DNA from: Kribbella catacumbae DSM 19601
Lineage (GTDB): Bacteria > Actinomycetota > Actinomycetes > Propionibacteriales > Kribbellaceae
NCBI RefSeq assembly: GCF_000372465.1
Contig: NZ_AQUZ01000005.1
Coordinates: forward strand, 124,001 to 188,000
Reading direction: 5' to 3'
DNA: 64,000 bases
The notes below the pieces were generated by a model. That model did not search any database and was not told where the DNA came from. It was given only the letters and a program-made list of their open reading frames with translations. Made by a program: the position numbers and the translations under genes. Below, one piece after another: positions 4,925 to 53,457 of this stretch. Every line of letters begins with the position of its first letter. The stretch's first letter is position 1.

Positions 4925-5679
4925 GCAGTTCTCCGAACGGGTGCGTGCTTGCGACGGGTGACAAGAGCATCGACCAGGTAGCTGGCCACTTCGCCAGGCG
5001 TGGTGCCGCGGCCGAACACCCGGTCCACTCCGAGCTCGCCGGCCATCTGCTCGGTGAAACGGGGGCCTCCGGCAACCAACACGGGACGCGCGTCCTCGGC
5101 ATACGCCTCCCGGAAGGCGGCCGACATCTCCTTGGTGTTCAGCACGTGCGCCTCCCGCTGGGTGACCACCTGCGACACCAGGATCGCGTCCGCCTTCTCG
5201 GCCTTGGCCCGGCGAACCAGCTCCGGTACGGCGACCTGGGCACCGAGGTTGACCACCTTCAGCTCCCGGTAGTACTCCAGGCCCTTCTCCCCCGCGAACC
5301 CCTTGATGTTCATGATCGCGTCGATGCCGACGGTGTGCGCGTCGGTGCCGATGCAAGCGCCGACGATGGTCAGCCTGCGCCGCAGTCCCTTGCGGATGGC
5401 GAGGTTCGCGTCCTTCGGCGAAAGCAGCGGGTAGTCGCGCTCGATCACCTCGACCTTGTCGGTGTCGACCAGGTGGTTCACCGGTCCGTAGACGACGAAG
5501 AAGGTGAAGTCCGGACCCATCGGCTTGGCGTGCACGACCAGGGCCGGGTCCATCCCCATCTTGTTCGCGAGCTGGATCGCCGCGCCTTCGGCGCGCTTGT
5601 CATGCGGGATCGGCAGCGTGAACGACATCTGCACCATCCCGTCACCGGTGGTGTCCCCATAGGGCCGGATGATGGTCAC
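4921..5679 (-). CDS. kamE: Lysine 5,6-aminomutase, beta subunit (B12-binding)
   Basis: Smaller subunit of the adenosylcobalamin- and PLP-dependent mutase that moves the terminal amino group of beta-lysine (or D-lysine) from C6 to C5. The cobalamin-binding D-x-H-x-x-G motif is visible as [10 protein letters not shown], with the cobalt-ligand His at residue 115. Eleven residues on, in IMNIKGFAG, stands Lys126, at the spacing of the PLP-Schiff-base lysine in the clostridial enzyme. Length is 252 residues. The start is a GTG overlapping the kamD stop as GTGA; an ATG two codons in is an alternative. The C-terminal half has the Rossmann-like B12 domain ([19 protein letters not shown]). Confidence 0.95.
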
Positions 5680-7244
5680 TGCGCCTCCTCGAGCAGTTCG
5701 ATCGCCGGGTTGTAGTACTGCGAGGAGCGGCGGGCCACGCCGTCCAGGCCGCGGCCGGCGTCCTGCGGTCGCTTCATCAGCCCGAAGGTTCCGTCGCCGA
5801 TCGCGTTCAGCAGACCTTCGTCGACGATCCGTTCCAGCAGTTCCACCGACTCCCCCAGCACCTGCCGGGCGCGCTGGGCGATGAACCCGTCCGGTGCCGG
5901 ATGGAAGTCATCATGAAGGTTGCCTGCGGCCCCCATCACGTAGCGCACGTTCTGCAGCGCCAGGTCGCGGTCGGAGATCCACGGCGTCACCACGGCCTCG
6001 GTCATCATGCCGACCAGCAGAATGCCCTGACCGGTCATCGCGCCGACCAGGTTGAAGAAACCGTCCAGCAGATAGCCACGGAAGACATCGCCCGTCATGT
6101 GCCGGGTCGGCGGCATCCACTTCAGCGGCGCGTCGGGGAACAGTTGCCGGGCGAGCATCGCGTGCGCGAGCTCCATCCGGAACGAGTCCGGGATCTCCGG
6201 GGTGATCTCGAACGCGTGCCCCAGTCCGAGCTGCCAGTCCTCGAGCCCGGCCTCCTTGGCGAAGTACTCGTTCAGCAACTGCGAGACCGTCACCGTGTGC
6301 GCGGCGTCGACCGCGTCGGCCGTGGTCAGGTAGTTGTCCTCGCCGGTGTTGATGATGATCCCGGCGCGGGCGTGGATCTGCCGGCTGAACCGCTGGTCCA
6401 CGAAGGTCCGGATCGGGTTGATGTCGCGGAAGAGGATCCCGTACATCGAGTCGTTCAGCATCATGTCCAGCCGCTGCAGCCCGGCCAGCGTCGCGATCTC
6501 CGGCATGCACAGCCCGGACGCGTAGTTCGTCAGCCGGATGTAGCGCCCGAGCTCCCGCGACGACTCGTCGAGCGCCGCCCGCATCAGCCGGAAGTTCTCT
6601 TGCGTCGCATAGGTTCCGGCGAACCCTTCGCGGGTCGCGCCTTCCGGCACATAGTCCAGCAACGACTGCCCGGTCGACCGGATCACAGCGATGATGTCCG
6701 CGCCCGCGCGAGCCGCTGCCTGCGCCTGCGGAATGTCCTCGTAGATGTCGCCGGTGGCAACGATCAGATAGATCCACGGCCGCTGCTCGGGATCGCCGTG
6801 CTTCTTGATCATCCGGTCGCGCTCACGCCGCCGCCCGTCGACCTTCTTCATACCGGCTGCGGCAGCCTTCCGCGCGGCGGCCTGAGCCCGTACTGCGTCG
6901 CGCCCCTCCGGCAGCCGGAACGTCACCGACCCGGACGCGGCCTTCTGCGCAAGGACGGACAAGTCTTCCGCCTCGCCGCGCAGCAACGCGTCCCACACCG
7001 GCAACGCGAGCCCGTGCTCCAGGCCGACATCGGCCCGCACGGTGTCGGCGAGCCGGTTCACCCAGGGAATGCCCTCGGTGTCGGCGCCGGCCAGCCCCGC
7101 CAGGCGCAGTACGGCGCGCTCGACCGAGACCGTCGTGTGCTGCTTGGCGATGGTGACGATCGGCCGCCCGGCCTTGCGGGCCAGGCTGCGCACCTTGCGG
7201 ACGGTGACCGGATCGAGGTCCAGCTTCTTCACTGCACGGGTCAC
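5676..7244 (-). CDS. kamD: Lysine 5,6-aminomutase, alpha subunit
   Basis: Large subunit of the B12/PLP aminomutase; it provides the TIM-barrel in which adenosylcobalamin and PLP meet. The 522-residue protein is the expected size (clostridial KamD is just over 500) and reads through without gaps, including the conserved block IRLTNYASGLCMPEIATLAG, the metal- and substrate-side stretch VDQRFSRQIHARAGIIINTG, and TPEIPDSFRMELAHAMLARQ. The GTG at 7244 is chosen because it overlaps the upstream amidohydrolase stop (GTGA) and has GAAGG 9 nt upstream; an ATG three codons earlier sits directly on that site. The downstream kamE overlaps by four bases, so the two subunits are probably made in equal amounts. 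Confidence 0.95.
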   Translation of the reverse strand: MTRAVKKLDLDPVTVRKVRSLARKAGRPIVTIAKQHTTVSVERAVLRLAGLAGADTEGIPWVNRLADTVRADVGLEHGLALPVWDALLRGEAEDLSVLAQKAASGSVTFRLPEGRDAVRAQAAARKAAAAGMKKVDGRRRERDRMIKKHGDPEQRPWIYLIVATGDIYEDIPQAQAAARAGADIIAVIRSTGQSLLDYVPEGATREGFAGTYATQENFRLMRAALDESSRELGRYIRLTNYASGLCMPEIATLAGLQRLDMMLNDSMYGILFRDINPIRTFVDQRFSRQIHARAGIIINTGEDNYLTTADAVDAAHTVTVSQLLNEYFAKEAGLEDWQLGLGHAFEITPEIPDSFRMELAHAMLARQLFPDAPLKWMPPTRHMTGDVFRGYLLDGFFNLVGAMTGQGILLVGMMTEAVVTPWISDRDLALQNVRYVMGAAGNLHDDFHPAPDGFIAQRARQVLGESVELLERIVDEGLLNAIGDGTFGLMKRPQDAGRGLDGVARRSSQYYNPAIELLEEAQ

Positions 7245-8842
7245 GAGGACCATCCTTCAGAGTCGTACACGATGCGGCCGCCGACCACGGTCCGGCGACA
7301 GACAGGAACAGGTGCGTCATCACTCAGGTCGGGCAACACCGGCACGCCCGCCCGCGGATCGGTCGACCAGGCCGCGACCCGCTCGTCCGGGGTCTGTACG
7401 ACAAGGTCCGCGTCGCTCTCCCAGACCGCGTACGTCGCCGCGGTTCCTGGCGCGAGTACGCCGGAGTCGTCGATGCCGGCCGCCCGCCAGCCACCACGCG
7501 TATGCGCGGCAAAGGCGGCCCGGACGGTGATCCGCTGCCCGGCTTCGTGATGGAACGCGGCAGCCCGAACAGCCTCCCACGGACCGACCTCGGTCACGGG
7601 CGAGTCCGACCCGAAGGCCAGTACTACGCCCGCGCGGGCGAGCGAACCGAAGGGGTTCATCCCCTCCCAACGGTCGCCGACGCGTTCGGCGTACATGTCG
7701 CTCGGTCCACCCCAGAGCCGGTCGAACATGGGCTGCACGCTGGCGACGACGCCGCATTGCGCGAGGGTGGCGATCGCGTCGTCGTCGACCATTTCGACGT
7801 GCTCCAGCCGATGCCGCGCGGCCACGAGAGCCTCGACGCCGACGATCCCGGCGGCGATTTCGAAGCCGCGCGCGATGTTGTCGAGGGCGGCGTCACCGAT
7901 GCAGTGGAAGCCGGCCTGGACGTTCTTCTCCGTGCAGGCGATCACGTGCTCCGCGATCTGCTCAGCCGTGAGGTACGCATGACCGCAGTGATCACCCTTG
8001 TCCTCGTACGGCGCTCGCAGTGCGGCCGTCCGTGAGCCGAGAGCACCGTCAGCATTGAGATCGCCGGCCAGTCCCGCGAGGCCGTACTTCGTCACGTTGT
8101 CGAAGACGCCGGGCTCGCCCCAGTACAAGGTTGCCGACAGCCCCAATTCCTCGGCGGCCTGGCGGACCAGTGGCAACTCCCATAGCGGCCCGATGTGCGG
8201 TGCGGCCATCTCGTGGAAGGCGCCGATGCCACGCTCGGCCATGGCCCGGACGGCCGCACGAGCATCGGCAAGGCGCTGCTCGGGGCCGACCAACTCGCTC
8301 AACGCATCACGGACAGAGTGGTTTGCATCGCGCTCAACGCGGCCACTGACGCTGTACCCGACCTGAATGGTGAGGTCGGCGACAGCTGCCTTGAGGGCGG
8401 ACGAGATGACGCCGGAGTGGCCGTCGACGCGGGAGAGGTAGACGCGGCGGCCGTCAGCAGCGCGATCCAGCTCCTCGGACGTCGGCGGCCGGCCCTCGGG
8501 CCACTTGGTCTCGTCCCAGCCGGCGCCGTCGATCACGGCGTCGGCTGGCAGGTTGGCGGCGAAGGCCTTGAGCCGGTCGAGTGCCTCGGTGAGGTTCGCA
8601 GTACCGGCGAGGTCGAGGCCGGTCAGCAGGGCGCCGGTCTGTGCGGTGTGGATGTGTGCGTCGACGAACGCGGGCGCGACGAGCTTGCCCTGCAGATCGA
8701 TCACCTCGTCCGCACCGTTCGCGTACGAGGCCGCGCTGCTGTCGTCGCCGAGCCAGGTGACGACGCCGTCGTCGATGGCGATCGCTGTCGCGTGGGGGTC
8801 GGCGGGTGAGTAGACGGAACCGTTGGTCAGAAGTGTGCGCAC
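7241..8842 (-). CDS. Amidohydrolase 3 (YtcJ-like) family protein
   Basis: Metal-dependent hydrolase of the amidohydrolase superfamily, 533 residues. Metal-site elements are visible: DAHIHT (HxH) near residue 62, the HRLEHVEMVDDD stretch near the middle and a late FGSDSPV with the catalytic Asp. The N-terminal strand TLLTNGSVYSP and the DLQGKLVAPAFVD turn are typical of the YtcJ-type subgroup. The GTG start has GGAGG 9 nt upstream, formed by the last codons of kdd; the two genes are 4 bp apart, and the 3' end overlaps kamD. It therefore sits inside the lysine operon, although no amidohydrolase step is known in that pathway. Possible roles are release of lysine or beta-lysine from an N-acyl or lactam form. 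Substrate unknown. Confidence 0.85.
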   Translation of the reverse strand: MRTLLTNGSVYSPADPHATAIAIDDGVVTWLGDDSSAASYANGADEVIDLQGKLVAPAFVDAHIHTAQTGALLTGLDLAGTANLTEALDRLKAFAANLPADAVIDGAGWDETKWPEGRPPTSEELDRAADGRRVYLSRVDGHSGVISSALKAAVADLTIQVGYSVSGRVERDANHSVRDALSELVGPEQRLADARAAVRAMAERGIGAFHEMAAPHIGPLWELPLVRQAAEELGLSATLYWGEPGVFDNVTKYGLAGLAGDLNADGALGSRTAALRAPYEDKGDHCGHAYLTAEQIAEHVIACTEKNVQAGFHCIGDAALDNIARGFEIAAGIVGVEALVAARHRLEHVEMVDDDAIATLAQCGVVASVQPMFDRLWGGPSDMYAERVGDRWEGMNPFGSLARAGVVLAFGSDSPVTEVGPWEAVRAAAFHHEAGQRITVRAAFAAHTRGGWRAAGIDDSGVLAPGTAATYAVWESDADLVVQTPDERVAAWSTDPRAGVPVLPDLSDDAPVPVCRRTVVGGRIVYDSEGWSS

Positions 8843-44732: not shown

Positions 44733-44859
44733 CTCACCATCCTCGCCGGGCCGTCAAGACGATTTGCTGGTCCGACACGGCGCACTAGTGCCCGGGCACT
44801 AGGCAGGTCAGGCCGCTGGCTCTAGGTGGCGGTCTTCGCGGATCCCTAGCGTCGATGGT

Positions 44860-46296
44860 GTGCCCCTTCCGAAGGTTGTCCGCTGGTCGTCGGCCCTCCT
44901 CGCCATGCTCGTTCTCGCGCTGGTGCCGGCCGCGCAGGCGCAGGCGCATGGCGTCAGCGCGACTGCGGACCTGCAGCTCGCGCAGACGTTTGCTGGCAAC
45001 GAGCTCACGGTCGTCATCCGCCGGACTCCCGAGGTACCAGGCCCGCTGCTGGTGGACGTGATCGCGCACGCCCCGGTGAGAGCGCGCTCTCTGGAGCTCG
45101 GCGTCCGCAGTGTCGAGCTGGGTGCGTTGTCGGCGGGTGAGATCGCGCTCTCCGACGCTGGGATTCAGTCCGCGCAACTCCGGGTGACTGCCGCCGGGAT
45201 ACACGAGCTGACACTTCGGACCGGCTCAGAGCAGGCACTGATTCCCTTCCGCGTGCTCGTGCCGAAGCCCGCGGGTTGGGAGTTCTTCATCTATGGCGCC
45301 TTCGGCGTCGCGGGCCTGCTGATCCTGACGGGAATCGCCTCTACAACGATCGGCGTACTGCGGCCGTTCGCCGTGCCGCAGGCACTGCTCGTCCTGGTCG
45401 CGTTGGTGGCCGCCTCGACGACCGCGATGCTTTCCAAGGATCTTCCGCCCTCCACACCCGAGGGTGCGCCTGAGGTAGGCAGCGCTCGGGGCGACCCGAC
45501 GGACGGATCAGCGCCCGGCGGCCGGCCCTATGCCAACCTCACGCTGCGGACCGAGCCTGCGAAGCCAGTCACCGGCAAGCCCGTGACCATCACCCTGCTG
45601 CTGACCGACGGCAACACCGGGCGACCGGTCGACGATCTCGTCGCCCATCACGCGGCACTGCTGCACACCGTCATCACCGGCGAGGCAGGCAAGGACTTCC
45701 ATCACGTGCACCCGGTTCGGACCGGCCCTGGCCTGTACCGGCTGCAACTCACAATGCGCTCGCCAGGTCGTCATCTCCTGTACGCCGAGTTCGAGCGCGC
45801 CGACAGCGGCGCCCAACTCGTCACCGGCTCCTTCGTCGTCGATCGCGCGCCAACTGGCCAGCCGAGGCGTGCCGCAGCGGCTCGGCGCGGCACCGGCCCG
45901 GCGCTGTCGGCTCCCGAGTACGGCACTGGGTCTATCCAGCTCTCACCGGGCAAGCCGGTCGCAGGCCGCCCAGTCACGATCGCCGCCCACGTCACCGCGG
46001 ACGGGCGGCCGGCCACCGATCTCCAGCCGTGGCTCGGAATGGCCGGCCACCTGATCGTCCGCGATCCAGAGAGCGCTTTCTTCGGCCACGTCCACGAACT
46101 GACCTCGATGGCCGCACAGTCGAGGTCGCCGGACCAGCCACCGCCTGACGAGACCGTCGCCGCCGAAGGCCCGGAGCTCCGCTTCACCTTCACCTTCCCG
46201 GCCGCCGGCCGCTACCTGGTGTGGATCCAGTACGCCCGCGGCTTCCGGATCTACACCGTGCCGACCACCGTCACCGTGTCGAAAGGACAACCATGA
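44860..46296 (+). CDS. Secreted/membrane protein with duplicated His-rich YtkA-like modules
   Basis: Protein of 478 residues, not characterised to my knowledge. A signal peptide ends near AQAQA-HG (about residue 29). A beta-rich periplasmic part follows, then two helices (FIYGAFGVAGLLILTGIAST and AVPQALLVLVALVAAS). The C-terminal extracellular part has two related modules: both start KPVtGkPVTI and share a His motif, HTVITGEAGKDFHHVHPV in the first and HLIVRDPESAFFGHVHEL in the second, and end G-R-x-L-x-x-F/W. Such His pairs on a YtkA/CopC-like sandwich suggest metal, perhaps copper, binding. GTG start. It opens a six-gene unit; its stop overlaps the next start in ATGA. Confidence 0.7.
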   Translation: MPLPKVVRWSSALLAMLVLALVPAAQAQAHGVSATADLQLAQTFAGNELTVVIRRTPEVPGPLLVDVIAHAPVRARSLELGVRSVELGALSAGEIALSDAGIQSAQLRVTAAGIHELTLRTGSEQALIPFRVLVPKPAGWEFFIYGAFGVAGLLILTGIASTTIGVLRPFAVPQALLVLVALVAASTTAMLSKDLPPSTPEGAPEVGSARGDPTDGSAPGGRPYANLTLRTEPAKPVTGKPVTITLLLTDGNTGRPVDDLVAHHAALLHTVITGEAGKDFHHVHPVRTGPGLYRLQLTMRSPGRHLLYAEFERADSGAQLVTGSFVVDRAPTGQPRRAAAARRGTGPALSAPEYGTGSIQLSPGKPVAGRPVTIAAHVTADGRPATDLQPWLGMAGHLIVRDPESAFFGHVHELTSMAAQSRSPDQPPPDETVAAEGPELRFTFTFPAAGRYLVWIQYARGFRIYTVPTTVTVSKGQP

Positions 46297-46733
46297 CCAG
46301 CAAAACCACAGCACCGCCACGCCGCCGTACGACGCTGCTGGTGCCGGGCCTCGCCCTGGCGGCGGTGGTTGCTGCCGGCATCTTCTTCGTCAACCGGGAC
46401 AGGGCCGCCGAACCAGCCGTTCTCAGGGCCGGCTCGGCCGCGCACCAGGTCGAGGTGCATCTGGCCGAGCCGCGGACCGGCCAGCTCGATCTCGAGCTCA
46501 CCGTCGCCGCGACCGGTGGTGACACGGCCGGAATCACCGGCGTGAGTGTCGAGGCAGCGATGCCCAGCATGGGCCATGCGACCTCGGAGCTCCCCGGGAC
46601 GGCCGTCGGTTCCGGCCGCTACCGGTTCCACGGCGAGCTGTTCCCGATGACCGGCCAGTGGGACCTGACCGTGCACGTCGCCTCAGTCGGCGGTCCCGAC
46701 CAGATCACCCTCCCCGTCACCGTGACGCGATGA
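46293..46733 (+). CDS. YtkA/FixH-like membrane-anchored protein
   Basis: Protein of 146 residues: a short basic cytoplasmic tail, one helix (LLVPGLALAAVVAAGIFFV, about 16-34), then an extracytoplasmic YtkA-like beta domain. The characteristic part is GVSVEAAMPSMGHATSELPG followed by GRYRFHGELFPMTGQWDLTV. In FixH/YtkA families the MPSMGH-type Met and His residues are thought to bind copper. ATG overlaps the previous stop (ATGA), fixing the start. The gene fits a role together with the larger protein encoded upstream. Confidence 0.78.
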   Translation: MTSKTTAPPRRRTTLLVPGLALAAVVAAGIFFVNRDRAAEPAVLRAGSAAHQVEVHLAEPRTGQLDLELTVAATGGDTAGITGVSVEAAMPSMGHATSELPGTAVGSGRYRFHGELFPMTGQWDLTVHVASVGGPDQITLPVTVTR

Positions 46734-46744
46734 AAGGACCTTCC

Positions 46745-47866
46745 ATGACCCGGACCTCAGCCAGCTCGTCGCGTGTACTGCCCAGGCGCGAACAGCTCGG
46801 CGCCTGGTTCCTCCTGACCGGCACAGCCCTTAGCGGCCTCGGCCTGGTCTGGGACGTGCAATGGCATTCCGACGTCGGCCCGGACACGTTCTTCACCGCT
46901 CCCCATCTGGTGATGTACCTCGGTGGAGCGCTCTCCGGCATCACCTCGCTCATCGTCGTGCTGCTCGGGACGCGAGCCGCGCAGCGTCCGCAGTACGTGG
47001 ACGGCGCTCCGGCGCTCACCGTGCTCGGGACGTTCCGGGCGCCGCTGCCGTTTCTCGTCTGCGGGACCGCGGGCGCCATCGGACTGCTCTACGGCCTCAC
47101 CGACCTGTGGTGGCACGAGGTCTTCGGCTTCGACGTCACGCCGACCTCGCCACCGCACGTCGCGATGGCGCTGATGTCGCTGTTCGACACCTTCGGCCTG
47201 GTGATGGCGTTCGTCATGCTGCGTTCGAGCCAGGCCGGGCGGATCGGCCTGATCTGCTCGGCCGCTGTCGCCCTCCCCAACCTGCTCTTCCTGTCCTACT
47301 CGACGCCGCCGATCCGAGGCATCAACATGTTCGTCCTCGCGCTCGTCGCCTTCGGCGTCCTGCTCGTCACGGCTGTGGCCGGTGCGCTGCGGCGCCCGTC
47401 CGCGGTGGCCTGGATCGCGCTCAGCACCTCGGCCGTCACGGCGGTGATGTGGTACTTCGGGCCGGTGGCGACCAACGTCTACGCTGACGCGCTCGGTCTG
47501 GGAATGCGCGACTACGCGGCGGGCTATCCGGCGATGGCGATCACCATGCCCTTCGCACTGCCCGTTGCAGCCCTCGTCCTCGCGGTCGGCTTCCGGTACG
47601 CCGCCGCCCGCAACTACCGGCCACAGGTGGTGCTCCCCGCGCTCGGTGCGGCAGCCGGTGTCTTGGTTGCCCTTGGCTACGTACTGATCCCCGTTCTGGA
47701 CACTCCTCCGGCAACGCTGGCGCCGGCGGCTCTGGTCGGAGCGCTGGCGGCCTGGATCGGCTGGCAGCTCGGATCTCTCGGACGAGAGATCAGCGCAGAC
47801 GTCACCCTGCCATCCGGTACCTCGGCGCCCCAGCCCACTCCCCACCTACTCGGCACGGAGGTCTGA
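46745..47866 (+). CDS. Polytopic membrane protein with duplicated D-x-x-W-H motif
   Basis: Uncharacterised integral membrane protein of 373 residues with about ten predicted helices. Two similar segments stand near the N-terminus, VWDVQWHSDVGPDTFFTAPH and LTDLWWHEVFGFDVTPTSPPH, each Asp-x-x-Trp-His, Gly-x-Asp, and Pro-(Pro)-His before a helix. Repeated His at the same membrane face suggests a metal or haem site, or a channel. I use ATG 46745 with AAAGGA 7 nt upstream; an ATG at 46730 overlapping the previous stop is possible. It follows the YtkA-like gene after 11 bp and precedes another secreted protein gene after 3 bp. I recognise no named family. Confidence 0.7.
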   Translation: MTRTSASSSRVLPRREQLGAWFLLTGTALSGLGLVWDVQWHSDVGPDTFFTAPHLVMYLGGALSGITSLIVVLLGTRAAQRPQYVDGAPALTVLGTFRAPLPFLVCGTAGAIGLLYGLTDLWWHEVFGFDVTPTSPPHVAMALMSLFDTFGLVMAFVMLRSSQAGRIGLICSAAVALPNLLFLSYSTPPIRGINMFVLALVAFGVLLVTAVAGALRRPSAVAWIALSTSAVTAVMWYFGPVATNVYADALGLGMRDYAAGYPAMAITMPFALPVAALVLAVGFRYAAARNYRPQVVLPALGAAAGVLVALGYVLIPVLDTPPATLAPAALVGALAAWIGWQLGSLGREISADVTLPSGTSAPQPTPHLLGTEV

Positions 47867-47869
47867 CCG

Positions 47870-48442
47870 ATGCCCAAAGCAACCATTCTGGCCGTCGCGG
47901 CGCTCGCTCTGCTCTTCGGCGTTTCCACCGCTCCGGCCGCGGCCGCGGCACCGAAGCCTGTTGCCGTGGTGCACTCCGAGGTGATCCAGGTCGGTCCCTA
48001 CACGCTGCGGACCTCCTTCAGCGAATGGCCTCTGCGAGCCGACCGTTCACTCGACTTCCTGTTCGAGCCGGCCAACGGCATCACCTCGATGACGGGCACG
48101 GTCCGCCCGCTCTCACCGGCCGGCAAGGTGTTCCAGCCGCAGGCTCAGTCGACCTCGGAGGGCACGGACCTCGCTCGCCACCCGCGCGACCTGGCCAGCT
48201 GGGGCTTCGACATCGTGGCCTTGACTGCCCCCGGGACCTGGCGGTTCGAGTTCACCCTCGACGGGCCCGACGGGCGCGGTACCGGCGTACTCGAGATCCC
48301 TGTGGGCGAACGGCCTGGACCGCCTGGCGCACTAGCCTGGTCGGTAGCCCTGCTGCCACTGGCGGCCGTCGTACCGATCGGGGGTTATCTGTGGTGGAGG
48401 ACCAGGCCAGGGCGCCGGCGCGAGACCTGGACATGGGCCTGA
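47870..48442 (+). CDS. Secreted protein with C-terminal membrane anchor
   Basis: Protein of 190 residues: signal peptide with a cleavage site near AAAAAPKP (about residue 26), a beta-rich domain (QVGPYTLRTSFSEWPLRADR and GTWRFEFTLDGPDGRGTGVL), a C-terminal helix (ALAWSVALLPLAAVVPIGGY) and a basic Trp/Arg tail that would stay in the cytoplasm. It resembles the other YtkA/CopC-like proteins of this locus in layout but lacks their His pairs. It begins 3 bp after the membrane gene, and its end overlaps the sensor kinase gene by 10 bp. It could be the extracellular input for that kinase. Confidence 0.65.
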   Translation: MPKATILAVAALALLFGVSTAPAAAAAPKPVAVVHSEVIQVGPYTLRTSFSEWPLRADRSLDFLFEPANGITSMTGTVRPLSPAGKVFQPQAQSTSEGTDLARHPRDLASWGFDIVALTAPGTWRFEFTLDGPDGRGTGVLEIPVGERPGPPGALAWSVALLPLAAVVPIGGYLWWRTRPGRRRETWTWA

Positions 48443-49593
48443 TCCAACGCCTCGCCGCGCGAATCCGGGCGGGCATCCTGCCGGTGGACCAGGGCAACCA
48501 CCTGGTGACCGCCTCCCTCCCGCTGCTGATCGCGGTGACGCTGTTCCAGAGCACGGACGGCAATGGCTGGGTCGGCCTCGGCTCGGGGATCGCCCAGAGC
48601 CTGGCGCTCAGCTGGGGCCGGCGTCAGCCCGTACCGACCGTGCTGGCCGTCATCCTGATCGACCTGGCGGGACTCGCCCTGGGTGCGGAGCTGCTCGGCT
48701 TCGGCGTGATCATCTCCGGGTACTACGCGGCCGCCTGGGGCAACCGGTGGGAACGCAAGACAGCGCTCTCTCTCGGACTGGCCTTCGCCTTGTATGTCGG
48801 CCTTTTCGCACCTGGGCACGCTCTCTCGATCGGGGCGATCCTAGGCGCCGGGTTCCTCGCCTTCTGGGTCAGCGGCCGCTTCGAGGCCACTCAGCGCGGG
48901 CGGATCAGCGAGCTCAGCGAGCAGACCGACCGGCTCGCCGAGGAACGTGCCGCCGCAGAGCAACGCGCCGCGGACCGGGAGCGCGCTCTCCTGGCTCGCG
49001 AGCTGCACGACATCCTCAACCACTCCGTCACCGGGATGGTGCTTGATGCCGAAGCGGGCGCGGAGACTGGGACTGAGGCCGACGCCCGGGAGACGCTGCA
49101 CCGGGTCGCCGACACCGGCCGCGACTCCCTGGCCGAGCTCCGCCGGCTTCTCGGCGTACTGCGAACCAGTGCTCCCGACGAGCTCCGCCCACCCCCGAGC
49201 CTGGAGCAGGTGGATGAGCTGGTGGCCCAGATTCCCTCCGGCGGGCCGACCGTGACCGTTGACCGGCACGGGGTGGTCCGGCCGGGCGACACGAGCATCG
49301 AGCTTGCGGCGTACCGGGTCGTGCAGGAGTCACTGACCAACGTCGCGAAGCACGCGGGCGCAGTACCGGCGACCGTCCGGTTGACCTACCTCGCTGACAG
49401 TCTGGAGATCGTTGTGACCAACGAGTTGCCACGGTCGAACCGTCGAAGTGCGGTCGTGCATGGTACCGGTCTGGTCGGGCTGCGGGAACGGGTCGAACTG
49501 CTCGGCGGCAGCCTGCACGCCGGTACGTCGGAAGCCGGCGGATTCACCGTGTACGCCATGCTGCCGCTGCGTCCGAGGTCCTTGGATGACTGA
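48433..49593 (+). CDS. Sensor histidine kinase (NarL-partner type, HisKA_3)
   Basis: Membrane sensor of 386 residues. About five helices fill residues 20-140, with very short loops, so it has no large extracellular domain of its own. A coiled-coil linker (EQTDRLAEERAAAEQRAADR) leads to the dimerisation/phosphoacceptor helix with His192 in LARELHDILNHSVTGM. The ATPase domain has N-box YRVVQESLTNVAKHAGAV and G-box GTGLVGLRERVELLGG. The start ATG 48433 overlaps the upstream gene; the stop overlaps the response regulator by 8 bp. Together they form one two-component system devoted to the 44.9-48.4 kb genes or to a target elsewhere. Confidence 0.9.
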   Translation: MGLIQRLAARIRAGILPVDQGNHLVTASLPLLIAVTLFQSTDGNGWVGLGSGIAQSLALSWGRRQPVPTVLAVILIDLAGLALGAELLGFGVIISGYYAAAWGNRWERKTALSLGLAFALYVGLFAPGHALSIGAILGAGFLAFWVSGRFEATQRGRISELSEQTDRLAEERAAAEQRAADRERALLARELHDILNHSVTGMVLDAEAGAETGTEADARETLHRVADTGRDSLAELRRLLGVLRTSAPDELRPPPSLEQVDELVAQIPSGGPTVTVDRHGVVRPGDTSIELAAYRVVQESLTNVAKHAGAVPATVRLTYLADSLEIVVTNELPRSNRRSAVVHGTGLVGLRERVELLGGSLHAGTSEAGGFTVYAMLPLRPRSLDD

Positions 49594-50260
49594 GGGTTTT
49601 GGCCGGACGGTGCGCGTCGTCGTCTGCGACGACGAGCAGCTCTTGCGCGAGGCACTGAGCCGGCTGGTCGACGTGGCGCCGGACCTGACCGTCGTCGGGC
49701 TGGCGGGAAACGGCGCAGAGGCCCTGGAGGCTGTCGCGCGACATTCGCCGGACGTCGTCCTGATGGATATCCGGATGCCGGTCCTCGACGGCATCGAGGC
49801 GACCAGGCGGATCGTCCGCGGCCACCCCCGGACGCGCATCCTGATCCTGACCACCTACGACCTCGACAGCTACGTGTACGCCGCGCTGCAGGCCGGCGCC
49901 AGCGGTTTCCTGCTGAAGGACGCACCGAGCGAGCGGCTCCGTGACGGCATCCGCATCGTTGCTGCCGGCAACTCTGTACTGGCGCCCGAGGCAACGGCCC
50001 GGATGATCGAGGCGCTCCGCCCCGACCTGCCCGACGAGGCCGACCGGGTCCTGCTCACCGCGATCACCAACCTGACCGGCCGCGAGCGCGAGGTCTTCGA
50101 TCTGGTCGCCACCGGCCTGTCCAACCAGCAGATTGCCGAACGGCTCACCATCAGCCGCTACACCGTCAAGGTCCACGTCTCCAGCATGCTGGCCAAGCTC
50201 GGCCTGCCGGACCGGATCCAGGCTGTTCTCGCGCTCTCCCGCCTTCGTCCACACCTGTAG
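49586..50260 (+). CDS. Response regulator, NarL/FixJ family
   Basis: DNA-binding response regulator, 224 residues. Receiver domain with the acidic pair in VVVCDDEQLLREALS, phosphorylation site Asp61 in VVLMDIRMPVLDG, Thr in LILTTYDLDSY and Lys in GFLLKDAPSERL. The LuxR-type helix-turn-helix is LTGREREVFDLVATGLSNQQ followed by IAERLTISRYTVKVHVSSML. It overlaps the kinase gene by 8 bp. Its last nine codons are the first unit of a small tandem repeat that continues past the stop. Confidence 0.94.
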   Translation: MTEGFGRTVRVVVCDDEQLLREALSRLVDVAPDLTVVGLAGNGAEALEAVARHSPDVVLMDIRMPVLDGIEATRRIVRGHPRTRILILTTYDLDSYVYAALQAGASGFLLKDAPSERLRDGIRIVAAGNSVLAPEATARMIEALRPDLPDEADRVLLTAITNLTGREREVFDLVATGLSNQQIAERLTISRYTVKVHVSSMLAKLGLPDRIQAVLALSRLRPHL

Positions 50261-50320: not shown

Positions 50321-50371
50321 CATGCAGCTAATCGGCTGCCTATGGTCATTAGGTAGCCAAATGGCTGCATG
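50321..50371. promoter_or_regulatory. 51-bp imperfect palindrome, candidate ArsR operator
   Basis: The sequence begins CATGCAGC and ends GCTGCATG, with an inner GGCTGCCTA / TAGGTAGCC pair; the right half holds a compact AGCCA-AA-TGGCT palindrome. The element ends 12 bp before the start of the ArsR-SRPBCC gene, so it is well placed for autorepression. Confidence 0.65.
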
Positions 50372-50383
50372 AACGGAGCGGTG

Positions 50384-51187
50384 ATGGATGACGAGGTGTT
50401 CCGGGCGCTGGCCGACCCGAGTCGCCGGCAGCTGCTGGACAGCTTGAACCGGCGCAACGGTCAGACGCTGAGTGAGCTGTGCGAGGGGCTCGACATGGCC
50501 CGGCAGTCGGTCAGCAAGCACCTGGCCGTCCTCGAGGGCGCCAACCTCGTCACCACGGTCCGGCGCGGCAGGGAGAAGTTGCACCACCTGAACGCCGAGC
50601 CGATCAACGCCATCGCCGATCGCTGGATCAACCAATACGACCGCCGGCGGGTGCAGTTGTTCGCCGACCTGAAGACAGCATTGGAGACCGAACCCGTGAG
50701 CGACAACGACTTCGTCTACACGACCTACATCAAGACCACGCCCGAGCGGCTGTGGCAGGCACTCACCGACCCCACTTTCACCAAGCAGTACTGGGGTGTG
50801 CAGTTCGAAACCGACTGGAAGGTCGGCTCACCGATCGACTGGGTGATGGGCGACGTCACCATGTCCGGGCCCGGCCAGGAGGTGCTCGAGTACGACCCGT
50901 ACCGCCGGCTCGCGTTCACCTGGCACCACATCACCCCGGAGTTCGCCAAGGCGGTCGAGATGACTCCCGAAATCCAGGCCAAGACCGCTGCCGAACCGCT
51001 CTCGCGGGCGAGCTTCGACCTCGAGCCGGCCGGCGACCAGGTGAAGCTGACCGTGATCCACACCGGGTTCGAGCCCGGCAGCGAGCTCCGCGCAATGGTC
51101 GGCGAAGGCTGGATCAGCCTGATCTCCGACCTCAAGTCCTTCGCGGAGTCCGCCCCAGAGCTGAACCCAGCCGAGAAGGTCAGCTAG
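50384..51187 (+). CDS. ArsR-type HTH fused to SRPBCC (AHSA1-like) domain
   Basis: Fusion protein of 267 residues. Residues 1-95 are an ArsR-like winged helix (VFRALADPSRRQLLDSLNRR, then ELCEGLDMARQSVSKHLAVL). Residues about 105-262 are a START/SRPBCC hydrophobic-cavity domain of the AHSA1 type, with IKTTPERLWQALTDPTFTKQ and the ending GEGWISLISDLKSF. In other genomes these are often two adjacent genes, so this is a one-protein ligand-responsive repressor. I use ATG 50384 with GGAG 5 nt upstream; an ATG at 50369 lies inside the palindrome. No metal-binding Cys pair of classical ArsR is seen. Confidence 0.88.
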   Translation: MDDEVFRALADPSRRQLLDSLNRRNGQTLSELCEGLDMARQSVSKHLAVLEGANLVTTVRRGREKLHHLNAEPINAIADRWINQYDRRRVQLFADLKTALETEPVSDNDFVYTTYIKTTPERLWQALTDPTFTKQYWGVQFETDWKVGSPIDWVMGDVTMSGPGQEVLEYDPYRRLAFTWHHITPEFAKAVEMTPEIQAKTAAEPLSRASFDLEPAGDQVKLTVIHTGFEPGSELRAMVGEGWISLISDLKSFAESAPELNPAEKVS

Positions 51188-51194
51188 CTTGCGG

Positions 51195-53309
51195 TCAGGG
51201 TCGTCGGTGGATAAGTAGTGGCAGTACCGCGGCCGCGCCGGACTCCCGGAGCTTGGCGCTGGCCACGGTGATCGGCCACTGGGAAGACGACGCGTCGACT
51301 ACCAGCAATACTGACCGTTCGGTGATCGCCTGGGCGGTCGCCGGGTCGACGGAGACGCCCTCTCGCCAGACTTTGGCTTCCTCTGCCGAGGAGAGGTCGT
51401 CGGTGAAGGCGGAGCCGTCGACCGTCAGCTCGGCTCGCTCCAGCCGGCCGATCTCGGCCAGGTGGTTGGCCACCTCGGCCACCAGTTGGCGGTGACCGGC
51501 GGCCGGGAGGGTCACCACGACCTCGGGGCGGCGAGACCACGCGTCGCGCCAGCGGGAGAGCGCGGCGACGCACCCCACCTTCAAGGTGTCGAGGGCGGCT
51601 GGGTCCGGATCGGAGCTGAACACCGACCGGATGACCTCGCGCCACTCAGGTGCGTCCGCATAGACGATGCTGCGGCCCGGCTCGGCCATCAGGCCCGGTG
51701 GGATGCGGCCCTTCGCACCGAAGGCGCCGCCCGGCCACATCTTGCGGGGCTCCAGGACATGGGTCTCTCCACGCAGCAACCGCGTGATCGCCTGCACGGT
51801 TTCCGGATCGGGCCTCGCGGTCAACGGATCGGGCAACAGGCCCAGGCAGACCGAGCACCGGCCGCACCGCTCGGCGGACGGGTCGTCCAGAGACTCCTGG
51901 AGAAGTTGCATGAGGCAACGTTCGCCGCGGGTGTAAGCGCGCATGATGTCGGCCTCGCGCCGCCGTACCGCGACGATGCCGTCGTAGTGGGCCGCGTCGA
52001 AGCTCCAGTCCGTGGCGGTTCGCACCCAGCCGCGCTCCACTCGCTCGACGGCACCGTCGACCGCGAGCTGCTTGAGCATCAGCTCGACGCGGCCCCGACG
52101 CAGACCGGTCTCCGCCTCCAGCGATGGCACGGTCGCCGGCTCGTCCGGGCCGTAGGCCTCCAGCCCGCGCAGCAACCGGTTCACCTGGTCAGGCACCGGG
52201 ATCGTGGCGGTGGCGAAGTAGTCCCACACGCCGGCATCCGCATCGGACGGCAGCAGGGCCACCACCGCATGGTCGATGCCACGCCCGGCACGACCGACCT
52301 GCTGGTAGTACGACACCGGCGACGGCGGCGAGCCGACGTGCACGACGAATCCGAGGTCAGGCTTGTCGTATCCCATCCCGAGAGCCGACGTCGCGACCAA
52401 TGCCTTCAACTCGTTGCCCCGCAGGGCGTCCTCGAGCCGCTCGCGCTCCCCCGCCTCTAGACCACCCGTGTACGCCGCGACTGGGACCGCCGCGCCATGA
52501 ACCTCTTGAATCGCCGCGGCCAGCCGCTGCGCATCAGACACAGTCAACGTGTAGACGATGCCCGAGCCCGGCAACTTCGGCAGCTGGTCGACCACCCAAG
52601 CGAATCGGTCCAACGGCGACAACGCGTCGACCACGGACAGCTGCAGACTCGACCGGGCCAGCGGACCACGCAGTACCAGCGTGGACTCGCCCAGCTGGTG
52701 CGCCACGTCATCGGTCACTCGCGCGTTCGCCGTCGCGGTCGTCGCGAGCACGGGCGTCTGTGGGTTGAGCTTCTGCAGTACGTCGGACACGCGACGGTAG
52801 TCCGGCCGGAAGTCGTGACCCCAGTCCGAGACGGCATGCGCCTCGTCGATCACCAGCAGACCGATCTGCCCGGCCAGTCCATCCAGCACTCGCCGGCCGA
52901 AGCCCGGGTTGGCCAGCCGCTCCGGGGACACCAGTAGTACGTCGATCGCGCCCGAGCGCAAGTCGCTCTCGATCCCTGACCAGGCATCGACATTCGACGA
53001 GTTCAGTGTCGCCGCCCGCAGACCGGCCCGGGCGGCGGCGGCCACCTGGTCGCGCATCAACGACAGCAAGGGTGAGACCACCAACGTCGGCCCGGCGCCT
53101 TCGGATCTACGAATCGCAGTCGCCGCCCAGTAGACAGCCGACTTGCCCCAGCCGGTCGCCTGGACAACCAGCACTCGCGCATTCGGCTCGCACAGCGCCG
53201 CGACCGCAGTCTCCTGGTCGCCCCGCAGCCGCGCGCCATCGCCGGCGATCGCGCGAATCACTCCCGCGGCAGTCGTCGCCCGATCATCCGAAAGCTCGAT
53301 GTCACCCAT
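51195..53309 (-). CDS. recQ: RecQ family ATP-dependent DNA helicase
   Basis: Superfamily 2 helicase of 704 residues. Motif I is VVQATGWGKSAVYW, motif II LLVIDEAHAVSDWGHDFRPD, motif III ATTATANARV, and motifs V-VI include ATSALGMGYDKPDLGFVVHV and QQVGRAGRGIDHAVVAL. The zinc-binding region follows (RGERCLMQLLQESLDDPSAE, then RCGRCSVCLG). Instead of an HRDC domain the C-terminus carries a further domain of about 200 residues (SIVYADAPEWREVIRSVFSS and the ending SGAAAVLPLLIHRR) that looks like a phosphoribosyltransferase-type fold common in actinobacterial RecQ-like proteins. ATG 53309 is taken as start; the ribosome binding site is weak. It converges on the ArsR fusion gene with 7 bp between. 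Confidence 0.9.
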   Translation of the reverse strand: MGDIELSDDRATTAAGVIRAIAGDGARLRGDQETAVAALCEPNARVLVVQATGWGKSAVYWAATAIRRSEGAGPTLVVSPLLSLMRDQVAAAARAGLRAATLNSSNVDAWSGIESDLRSGAIDVLLVSPERLANPGFGRRVLDGLAGQIGLLVIDEAHAVSDWGHDFRPDYRRVSDVLQKLNPQTPVLATTATANARVTDDVAHQLGESTLVLRGPLARSSLQLSVVDALSPLDRFAWVVDQLPKLPGSGIVYTLTVSDAQRLAAAIQEVHGAAVPVAAYTGGLEAGERERLEDALRGNELKALVATSALGMGYDKPDLGFVVHVGSPPSPVSYYQQVGRAGRGIDHAVVALLPSDADAGVWDYFATATIPVPDQVNRLLRGLEAYGPDEPATVPSLEAETGLRRGRVELMLKQLAVDGAVERVERGWVRTATDWSFDAAHYDGIVAVRRREADIMRAYTRGERCLMQLLQESLDDPSAERCGRCSVCLGLLPDPLTARPDPETVQAITRLLRGETHVLEPRKMWPGGAFGAKGRIPPGLMAEPGRSIVYADAPEWREVIRSVFSSDPDPAALDTLKVGCVAALSRWRDAWSRRPEVVVTLPAAGHRQLVAEVANHLAEIGRLERAELTVDGSAFTDDLSSAEEAKVWREGVSVDPATAQAITERSVLLVVDASSSQWPITVASAKLRESGAAAVLPLLIHRRP

Positions 53310-53457
53310 ACCAACGACCCTAGTCGCCAGCACCCCCACTCCGTTCGCCCCCACACACAACCTGTGGACAACTCACCCCTCCCACCCCGCGCAGTTCAGC
53401 AATCCCCCCACCGTGCACTCCGCTCCGCCGCCGTAGGGGTTCACCCCTCATGCCGGG

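Follow-up and report, generated by a model that had tools for sequence, protein, structure and literature searches.

What is the role of a six-gene locus in the actinomycete Kribbella catacumbae DSM 19601 whose third product, a polytopic membrane protein with no family in Pfam or NCBIfam, carries two motifs spaced like the copper sites of the particulate methane monooxygenase (pMMO) C subunit? The genes, here called g1 to g6, were read from the sequence as tightly packed, co-oriented open reading frames at positions 44860-50260 of the forward strand of the window, a 64,000-nucleotide stretch of the 9.6-Mb genome (contig C5:124001-188000; Table 1). We put at about even the chance that g1-g4 handle copper as a module in the cell envelope of actinobacteria, with two PmoC-type sites in g3 and with g5 and g6 in control. 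A first-pass annotation of the same DNA had proposed copper acquisition or delivery; its account held neither the PmoC-type double motif of g3, nor the third, N-terminal domain and central helices of g1, nor a palindrome upstream of g1, all of which are described below.

Two PmoC-type motifs in g3

In pMMO the CuC site consists of Asp156, His160 and His173, and that of ammonia monooxygenase (AMO) of Asp136, His140 and His153 (in passages of PMC7584546); CuD consists of Asn227, His231 and His245 and is termed the putative active site (in passages of PMC12576850). The motifs of g3, D-x3-H-x12-H and then D-x3-H-x13-H, have the CuC and CuD spacings in the same order. In hand-picked alignments (the window plus 55 of 80 scan loci for g3, 47 for g1, 46 for g2 and 47 for g4), D37/H41/H54 and D120/H124/H138 are kept in 56/56 g3 rows, all of which show the CuC ligand pattern Asp-x3-His-x12-His. 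At CuD the spacing and both His are kept and Asn is replaced by Asp, so that Asn-x3-His-x13-His does not occur. Outside the two motifs, Y246, R255 and D256 are also invariant. Both motifs also occur in eight monooxygenase C subunits (from Mycolicibacterium, Mycobacterium, two Rhodococcus, Nitrosomonas, Methylomagnum and two Methylocystis), where each has an acidic residue at +10 and the two lie 71-73 residues apart, against 70-83 in g3 and its relatives. Part of the g3 superfamily has one or two extra residues in site 1, and the likeness extends to non-ligand positions (g3 DVQWHSDVGPDTFFTAPH; HmoC DATWHQILTRDTAFTPSH).

The roughly ten helices and repeated Asp-Trp-His motif noticed at first pass were borne out by an AlphaFold2 model with ten helices and D-x-x-W-H occurring twice (mean predicted local distance difference test score, pLDDT, 90.3). 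Loops taken as inside hold eight Lys and Arg residues and those outside two, so the N-terminus is probably inside and both motifs on the outer side.

In profile comparisons, a superfamily profile (30 superfamily loci plus P0007, P0009 and P0010) aligned with the AmoC profile at probability 79.2 (P=1.6e-5), both sites in register, where the best of 69 decoy families (10 with at least three predicted helices; AmoA, AmoB and CopD included) reached P values of 0.083 against the superfamily profile, 0.033 against AmoC and 0.048 against g3. When a hidden Markov model (HMM) of the superfamily was run on a set of 1281 proteins, a family member (locus L013) came top, followed by three AmoC proteins (E 7e-5, 9e-5 and 1.6e-4) and then by four others (E up to 0.07), among which one unrelated protein (0.03) is ranked; the eighth AmoC lies outside the first 15. 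Conversely, the first 15 non-AmoC matches of the AmoC HMM in the same proteins were all superfamily members, with five unrelated proteins in the first 60. Masking site 2 left the match between the profiles at P=3.6e-5.

Several results weigh against reading g3 as a copper protein akin to PmoC. Alone, it met the AmoC profile at a probability of 13.8 (P=0.002). The superfamily match fell to P 0.051 with site 1 masked, 0.011 with the six ligands masked and 0.62 with both sites masked, so that it depends mainly on the sites and, as masking site 2 changes it little, chiefly on site 1. Fold searches with g3 gave no match at E<=0.001 in the PDB, among the matches listed (50 of 347), nor any in BFVD at that threshold. 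Among five plasmid regions with g3-type proteins, introduced below, one is without metal genes and one is ambiguous, and a scan of 20 chosen cassette neighbours found no copper genes, neighbouring genes being mostly genus-specific clusters.

These points bear on whether the D/H sites of g3 resemble those of PmoC by convergence, in an unrelated protein that binds copper or else zinc, iron or manganese. The loss of the match on masking both sites would fit this, as would ten helices without a fold match: PmoC was not among the g3 fold matches listed, and the best VIA match (Z 7.2, root-mean-square deviation 5.0, 228 residues aligned) lies in the range usual for helical bundles. Against convergence, the likeness in site 1 goes beyond the ligands (D-T-x-F-T, W, G), both sites share order and spacing, and the profile match stands far above the decoys. 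We regard convergence as rather unlikely, and shared ancestry of the g3 superfamily with PmoC/AmoC as somewhat likelier from the sequences compared. Convergence would be compatible with a copper function, so our confidence in the copper-handling reading and in this rival overlaps.

A further question is whether g3 itself catalyses a reaction, as a pared-down copper membrane oxidase or oxygenase that uses its CuD-like site, with g1, g2 and g4 as copper-loading or accessory proteins. Both PmoC site patterns recur in each of the 56 rows of g3 and among the more distant superfamily members, the matching pMMO site is the one designated as putatively active, and the invariant Tyr, Arg and Asp noted above would suit a catalyst. 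On the other side stand the Asp in place of the CuD Asn, the lack of consistent metabolic neighbours and the lack of any PmoA- or PmoB-like profile match: AmoA and AmoB profiles gave nothing with the superfamily and reached probabilities of 0.2-3.6 in a further set of comparisons, and none of the six products matches an A or B subunit in Pfam. Because no A or B subunit was found and the CuD Asn is Asp, g3 is, by its sequence, not a methane or ammonia monooxygenase. A catalytic g3 is improbable in our judgement, yet it is the main rival, and both it and the transfer of copper through g3 predict copper in this protein. A layout reminiscent of PmoB (beta-sandwich, two helices, beta-sandwiches, H-x-H) made g1 a tempting counterpart of that subunit, which the profile comparison did not support (P=0.021, probability 2.3).

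A collinear cassette and its putative metal-binding partners

Relatives of g3 were sought in 38 family genomes (the host included, all of one genus) and matched in seven at E<=0.001. Besides the host, three of these hold all six genes in the same order, two hold g1-g4 with the kinase/regulator pair placed otherwise, and one has only a distant g3-type fusion protein (L013). The g3 proteins of the K. sandramycini and K. albertanoniae loci are 64% identical to that of the host. A one-genome-per-species scan gave 191 relatives, the best 80 of which were used and come, by record title, from actinomycetes or actinobacterial metagenome-assembled genomes. The resulting 85 loci comprise the window, L008, L011-L013 and the 80 scan loci (L009 and L010 were dropped as lying on the same contigs as L014 and L015); the divergent L013 is left out of the 84-locus counts below, and the identical L038 and L040 are both included. 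The latter are two Lentzea sp. NEAU-D7 contigs with an identical cassette region, either a duplicated region or an assembly artefact.

Across these loci g1-g2-g3-g4 are complete and collinear in 80/84, the exceptions being L033 (without g1, near a contig end), L063 and L017 (without g1 and g2) and L018 (g1-g2 on the opposite strand). Strong matches to g4 (E<1e-20) and g3 (E<1e-18) hit the same four of 394 genomes of the class. Thus g1-g4 are a widespread actinobacterial cassette that is patchy in distribution yet stays together. The kinase and regulator genes behave otherwise: they lie directly downstream on the same strand in nine of the 84 loci, upstream in 37 (30 divergent, seven on the same strand) and on both sides in two; one gene of the pair stands alone in two, and in 34 neither was found within 3.5 kb, the sequence on one side being too short in three of these. 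The two-component genes are therefore separable from the cassette, and the full six-gene set is one subtype. The co-occurrence expected at first pass accordingly holds for g1-g4 and not for the downstream pair; a scattered distribution, named there as a refutation, is not what we found, given that g1-g4 travel together and three related genomes hold all six genes in order.

Of the three secreted partners, g1 and g2 carry YtkA-like modules with conserved His and Met. Ahead of the two His-rich modules, the AlphaFold2 model of g1 (mean pLDDT 86.2) shows a further beta-sandwich at the N-terminus, the third of the protein, and a pair of central helices. The His-rich modules had been credited with a D/E-x-x-F-x-H-V-H type motif; the F-x-H-V-H core is present in both (FHHVH at 280-284, FGHVH at 408-412), and the D/E-x-x prefix is inexact in both. 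Module A aligns with the g2 profile at an hhalign probability of 92. In g2, the proposed YtkA assignment was upheld by Pfam (27.5 bits against a cut-off of 25.9), and MPSMGH is present. By eye, g4 was judged to have the signal peptide and C-terminal helix of a secreted, anchored protein; it matches no Pfam family and the g2 profile weakly (hhalign probability 81). A fold search with g1 returned generic immunoglobulin-like folds among the matches listed, and sequence searches of solved structures with g1, g3 and g4 profiles gave nothing useful.

Plasmid-borne relatives link these modules to metals. Searching plasmids with g1 gave 110 records, and seven regions were opened, six of them annotated (from Mycolicibacterium, two Hymenobacter, Rhodococcus, Brasilonema and Streptomyces). 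Metal genes adjoin the g1-module relatives in 6/6 annotated regions: four have a gene for a heavy-metal P-type ATPase, three one for a metal-sensitive regulator and three have resistance-nodulation-division (RND) efflux genes. Longer, distant relatives of g3 also occur on actinobacterial plasmids; five of seven such records were opened, and copper or heavy-metal genes are clearly present in three of the five regions.

The sequences place g3 in a larger superfamily outside Pfam. A search with the plasmid relative P0009 gave matches at E<=1e-5 in 48 of the 394 genomes of the class. The host itself holds a second superfamily member (L171, contig C9:64525-65217) with the motifs DIAVHIDSGRDTGPFGTPAH and DDVWHRLFGEDVTLWGPTH. 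On a Mycolicibacterium vanbaalenii plasmid (L105:7057-9818) a g3-type protein whose C-terminus looks FixH-like by eye is encoded directly after a CopC gene. On plasmid pMYCCH.01 of Mycolicibacterium chubuense NBB4 (L108, L157) a superfamily gene is found together with a true hydrocarbon monooxygenase operon (C, A, B). At L013:3513-7863 the g3-type fusion is preceded by a monooxygenase-like flavoprotein (by eye) and by a 439-residue membrane protein with no Pfam family at E<0.1; the fusion itself, a relative of the M. vanbaalenii protein, matched no Pfam family. A scan of viral contigs with HmoC found no relative.

The most economical account of these sequences is that copper would be captured by g1, g2 and g4, each binding it outside the membrane, and exchanged with CuC-like and CuD-like sites of g3 at the outer ends of helices 1-2 and 3-4; the module would thereby capture or deliver copper, a job like that of CopC-CopD-YtkA (YcnJ). 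The earlier copper proposal finds good support in the conservation of His, Met and Asp sets in g1-g3, where a lack of clustered ligands would have spoken against it, and in the metal-island relatives. Copper as the metal, the direction of transfer, the signal of g5 and the binding of the palindrome by g6 are what we infer.

Locus architecture and putative control

The junctions listed at first pass were recovered exactly, with a 4-bp overlap of g1 and g2, gaps of 11 bp (g2/g3) and 3 bp (g3/g4), and overlaps of 10 bp (g4/g5) and 8 bp (g5/g6). Because genes overlap, g1-g6 are likely a single transcript.

Table 1. Features of the g1-g6 locus, in window coordinates.
Feature	Position	Strand	Description
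Palindrome CTAGTGCCCGGGCACTAG	44785..44802		Perfect, 18 bp; proposed operator of g6
Promoter-like block (TCAG ... CCGCT ... CTAGGT)	44808..44827	+	Invariant columns in four Kribbella-group loci; putative function
g1	44860..46296	+	GTG start; signal peptide, beta-sandwich, two helices (139-164, 168-194), two His-rich YtkA-like modules
g1 module A	45532..45843	+	Residues 225-328; H269, H282, H284 invariant in 48 rows
g1 module B	45931..46281	+	Residues 358-474; M394, H397, H410, H412 invariant in 48 rows
g2	46293..46733	+	YtkA/FixH-like; M90, M93, H95, M119 kept in 0.89-0.94 of 47 rows
g3	46745..47866	+	Ten-helix membrane protein of an undescribed superfamily; alternative in-frame ATG at 46730
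g3 site 1	46853..46906	+	Residues 37-54, D-x3-H-x5-D-x6-H, CuC-like; 56/56 rows
g3 site 2	47102..47158	+	Residues 120-138, D-x3-H-x5-D-x7-H, CuD-like with Asp for Asn; 56/56 rows
g4	47870..48442	+	Secreted, C-terminally anchored; weak YtkA-like match
g5	48433..49593	+	Histidine kinase with membrane DUF7134 domain
g6	49586..50260	+	NarL-type response regulator

Pfam confirmed the sensor kinase and NarL regulator assigned to g5 (HisKA_3, HATPase_c, DUF7134) and g6 (Response_reg, GerE), and found no extracellular sensor domain in g5, again as described. The kinase, in the first-pass proposal, would read the state of the membrane or secreted proteins. PADLOC gave only two weak CARF-model matches, to the C-terminal part of g6. 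A third rival reading is that g5 and g6 make the operon respond to envelope stress or an antibiotic, that metal binding is structural and that copper is not its business. The resemblance of g5 to MctS-, MadS- and LiaS-type kinases (all far below cut-offs) leans that way, as do the missing sensor domain and the many loci in which the pair is absent or elsewhere; the conserved ligand sets and metal-island relatives argue the other way, and we find this quite improbable, the least likely of the readings weighed here.

The palindrome upstream of g1 offers a handle on control in the copper-handling reading. It is kept, beside the promoter-like block, in 4/4 Kribbella-group loci aligned. Genome-wide, CTAGTNCNCNGGNACTAG is matched perfectly at this one place, upstream of g1, and with one mismatch at one other; since a reversed control pattern gave 2 and 4 hits, the one-mismatch hits are uninformative. 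With at most one mismatch, CTAGT-N8-ACTAG occurs near the g1 start in 8/9 downstream-pair loci against 0/72 other g1 loci (a count in which one locus figures twice); the other 1,554,755 bp of these loci contain no such site. The ninth downstream-pair locus, from Rhodococcus (L030), has GTAGT-N8-ACTAC at a matching offset. Relative to the chosen g1 start, six of the nine sites lie at -76 and one at -75; those of L008 and L015 lie at -55 and -40, and for these two the start may have been wrongly chosen. Most simply, the palindrome is read as a dedicated, putative operator of g6, through which g5 and g6 would control the operon in the downstream-pair subtype. A single perfect operator would make a clean reporter for the signal sensed by g5.

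Other genes of the window include an ArsR-type helix-turn-helix fused to an AHSA1 domain directly 3' of g6 on the same strand (50369-51187), a DEAD/Helicase_C protein, RecQ-like by eye (51195-53360, reverse strand), and a D-lysine 5,6-aminomutase alpha subunit (5676-7253, reverse strand), surprising for an aerobic actinobacterium.

Relation to known systems

The first-pass statement that no described system has this gene set agrees with the open-access PubMed Central (PMC) literature searched, in which, among the matches listed, neither the gene set nor such PmoC-like proteins are described; subscription journals lay outside that search. Lone pmoC genes are mentioned in passages of PMC6189053. 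We tentatively propose, at somewhat less than even confidence, that g3 founds a large, undescribed actinobacterial superfamily sharing ancestry with the monooxygenase C subunit, in which CuC and CuD sites sit in a stand-alone protein that is FixH-fused or encoded with YtkA-type proteins. The superfamily would perhaps be the copper-binding stock from which these enzymes descend or beside which they emerged, and in the cassette g3 could be a minimal copper membrane oxidase. The location of the pMMO active site has been debated for decades (in passages of PMC12576850), and CuC and CuD are, in our view, hard to study in the intact enzyme. A membrane protein encoded by one gene, with both site patterns and from actinobacteria that can be cultured, would allow these sites to be studied without A and B subunits and would help to show how the C subunit arose.

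Compared with PmoC/AmoC/HmoC (PF04896), g3 has the same two metal motifs (D-x3-H-x12-H and N/D-x3-H-x13-H) and +10 acidic residue, and differs in its ten helices, its CuD Asp and the absence of a Pfam AmoC match; where the monooxygenases have A and B subunits, the cassette has g1, g2 and g4. PmoD/AmoD share the layout of g4, PmoD having a signal peptide, an extracytoplasmic domain and a C-terminal helix (in passages of PMC6189053); its two strictly conserved Cys have no conserved counterpart in the g4 rows, which average 0.25 Cys, and a PmoD-like g4 was rejected on this ground.

The two-module YtkA/heavy-metal-binding proteins of metal islands resemble g1 over approximately residues 196-478, that is, both C-terminal modules, to which 39 of the 40 rows listed from the 110 plasmid records are confined; in those rows neither the N-terminal beta-sandwich nor the two-helix anchor of g1 is present, and g2-g4 are missing from the six annotated regions opened. 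Like the cassette, YcnJ of Bacillus subtilis (CopC-CopD-YtkA, in passages of PMC13344008) unites a polytopic membrane protein with a YtkA domain and a copper-type module that lies outside the cell. Homology of g3 to CopD was rejected on the lack of a Pfam match; because the CopD/CopC alignments used for profile comparison (probability 0.1) were of automatically chosen reading frames, several too short, that verdict rests on Pfam. By Pfam no CopC or CopD domain occurs in g1-g4 or their aligned relatives, the host CopC and CopD genes being separate and on other contigs, whereas the YtkA domain of YcnJ is matched by g2, and the pairing of a CopC gene with the FixH-like g3-type protein on the M. 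vanbaalenii plasmid recalls YcnJ.

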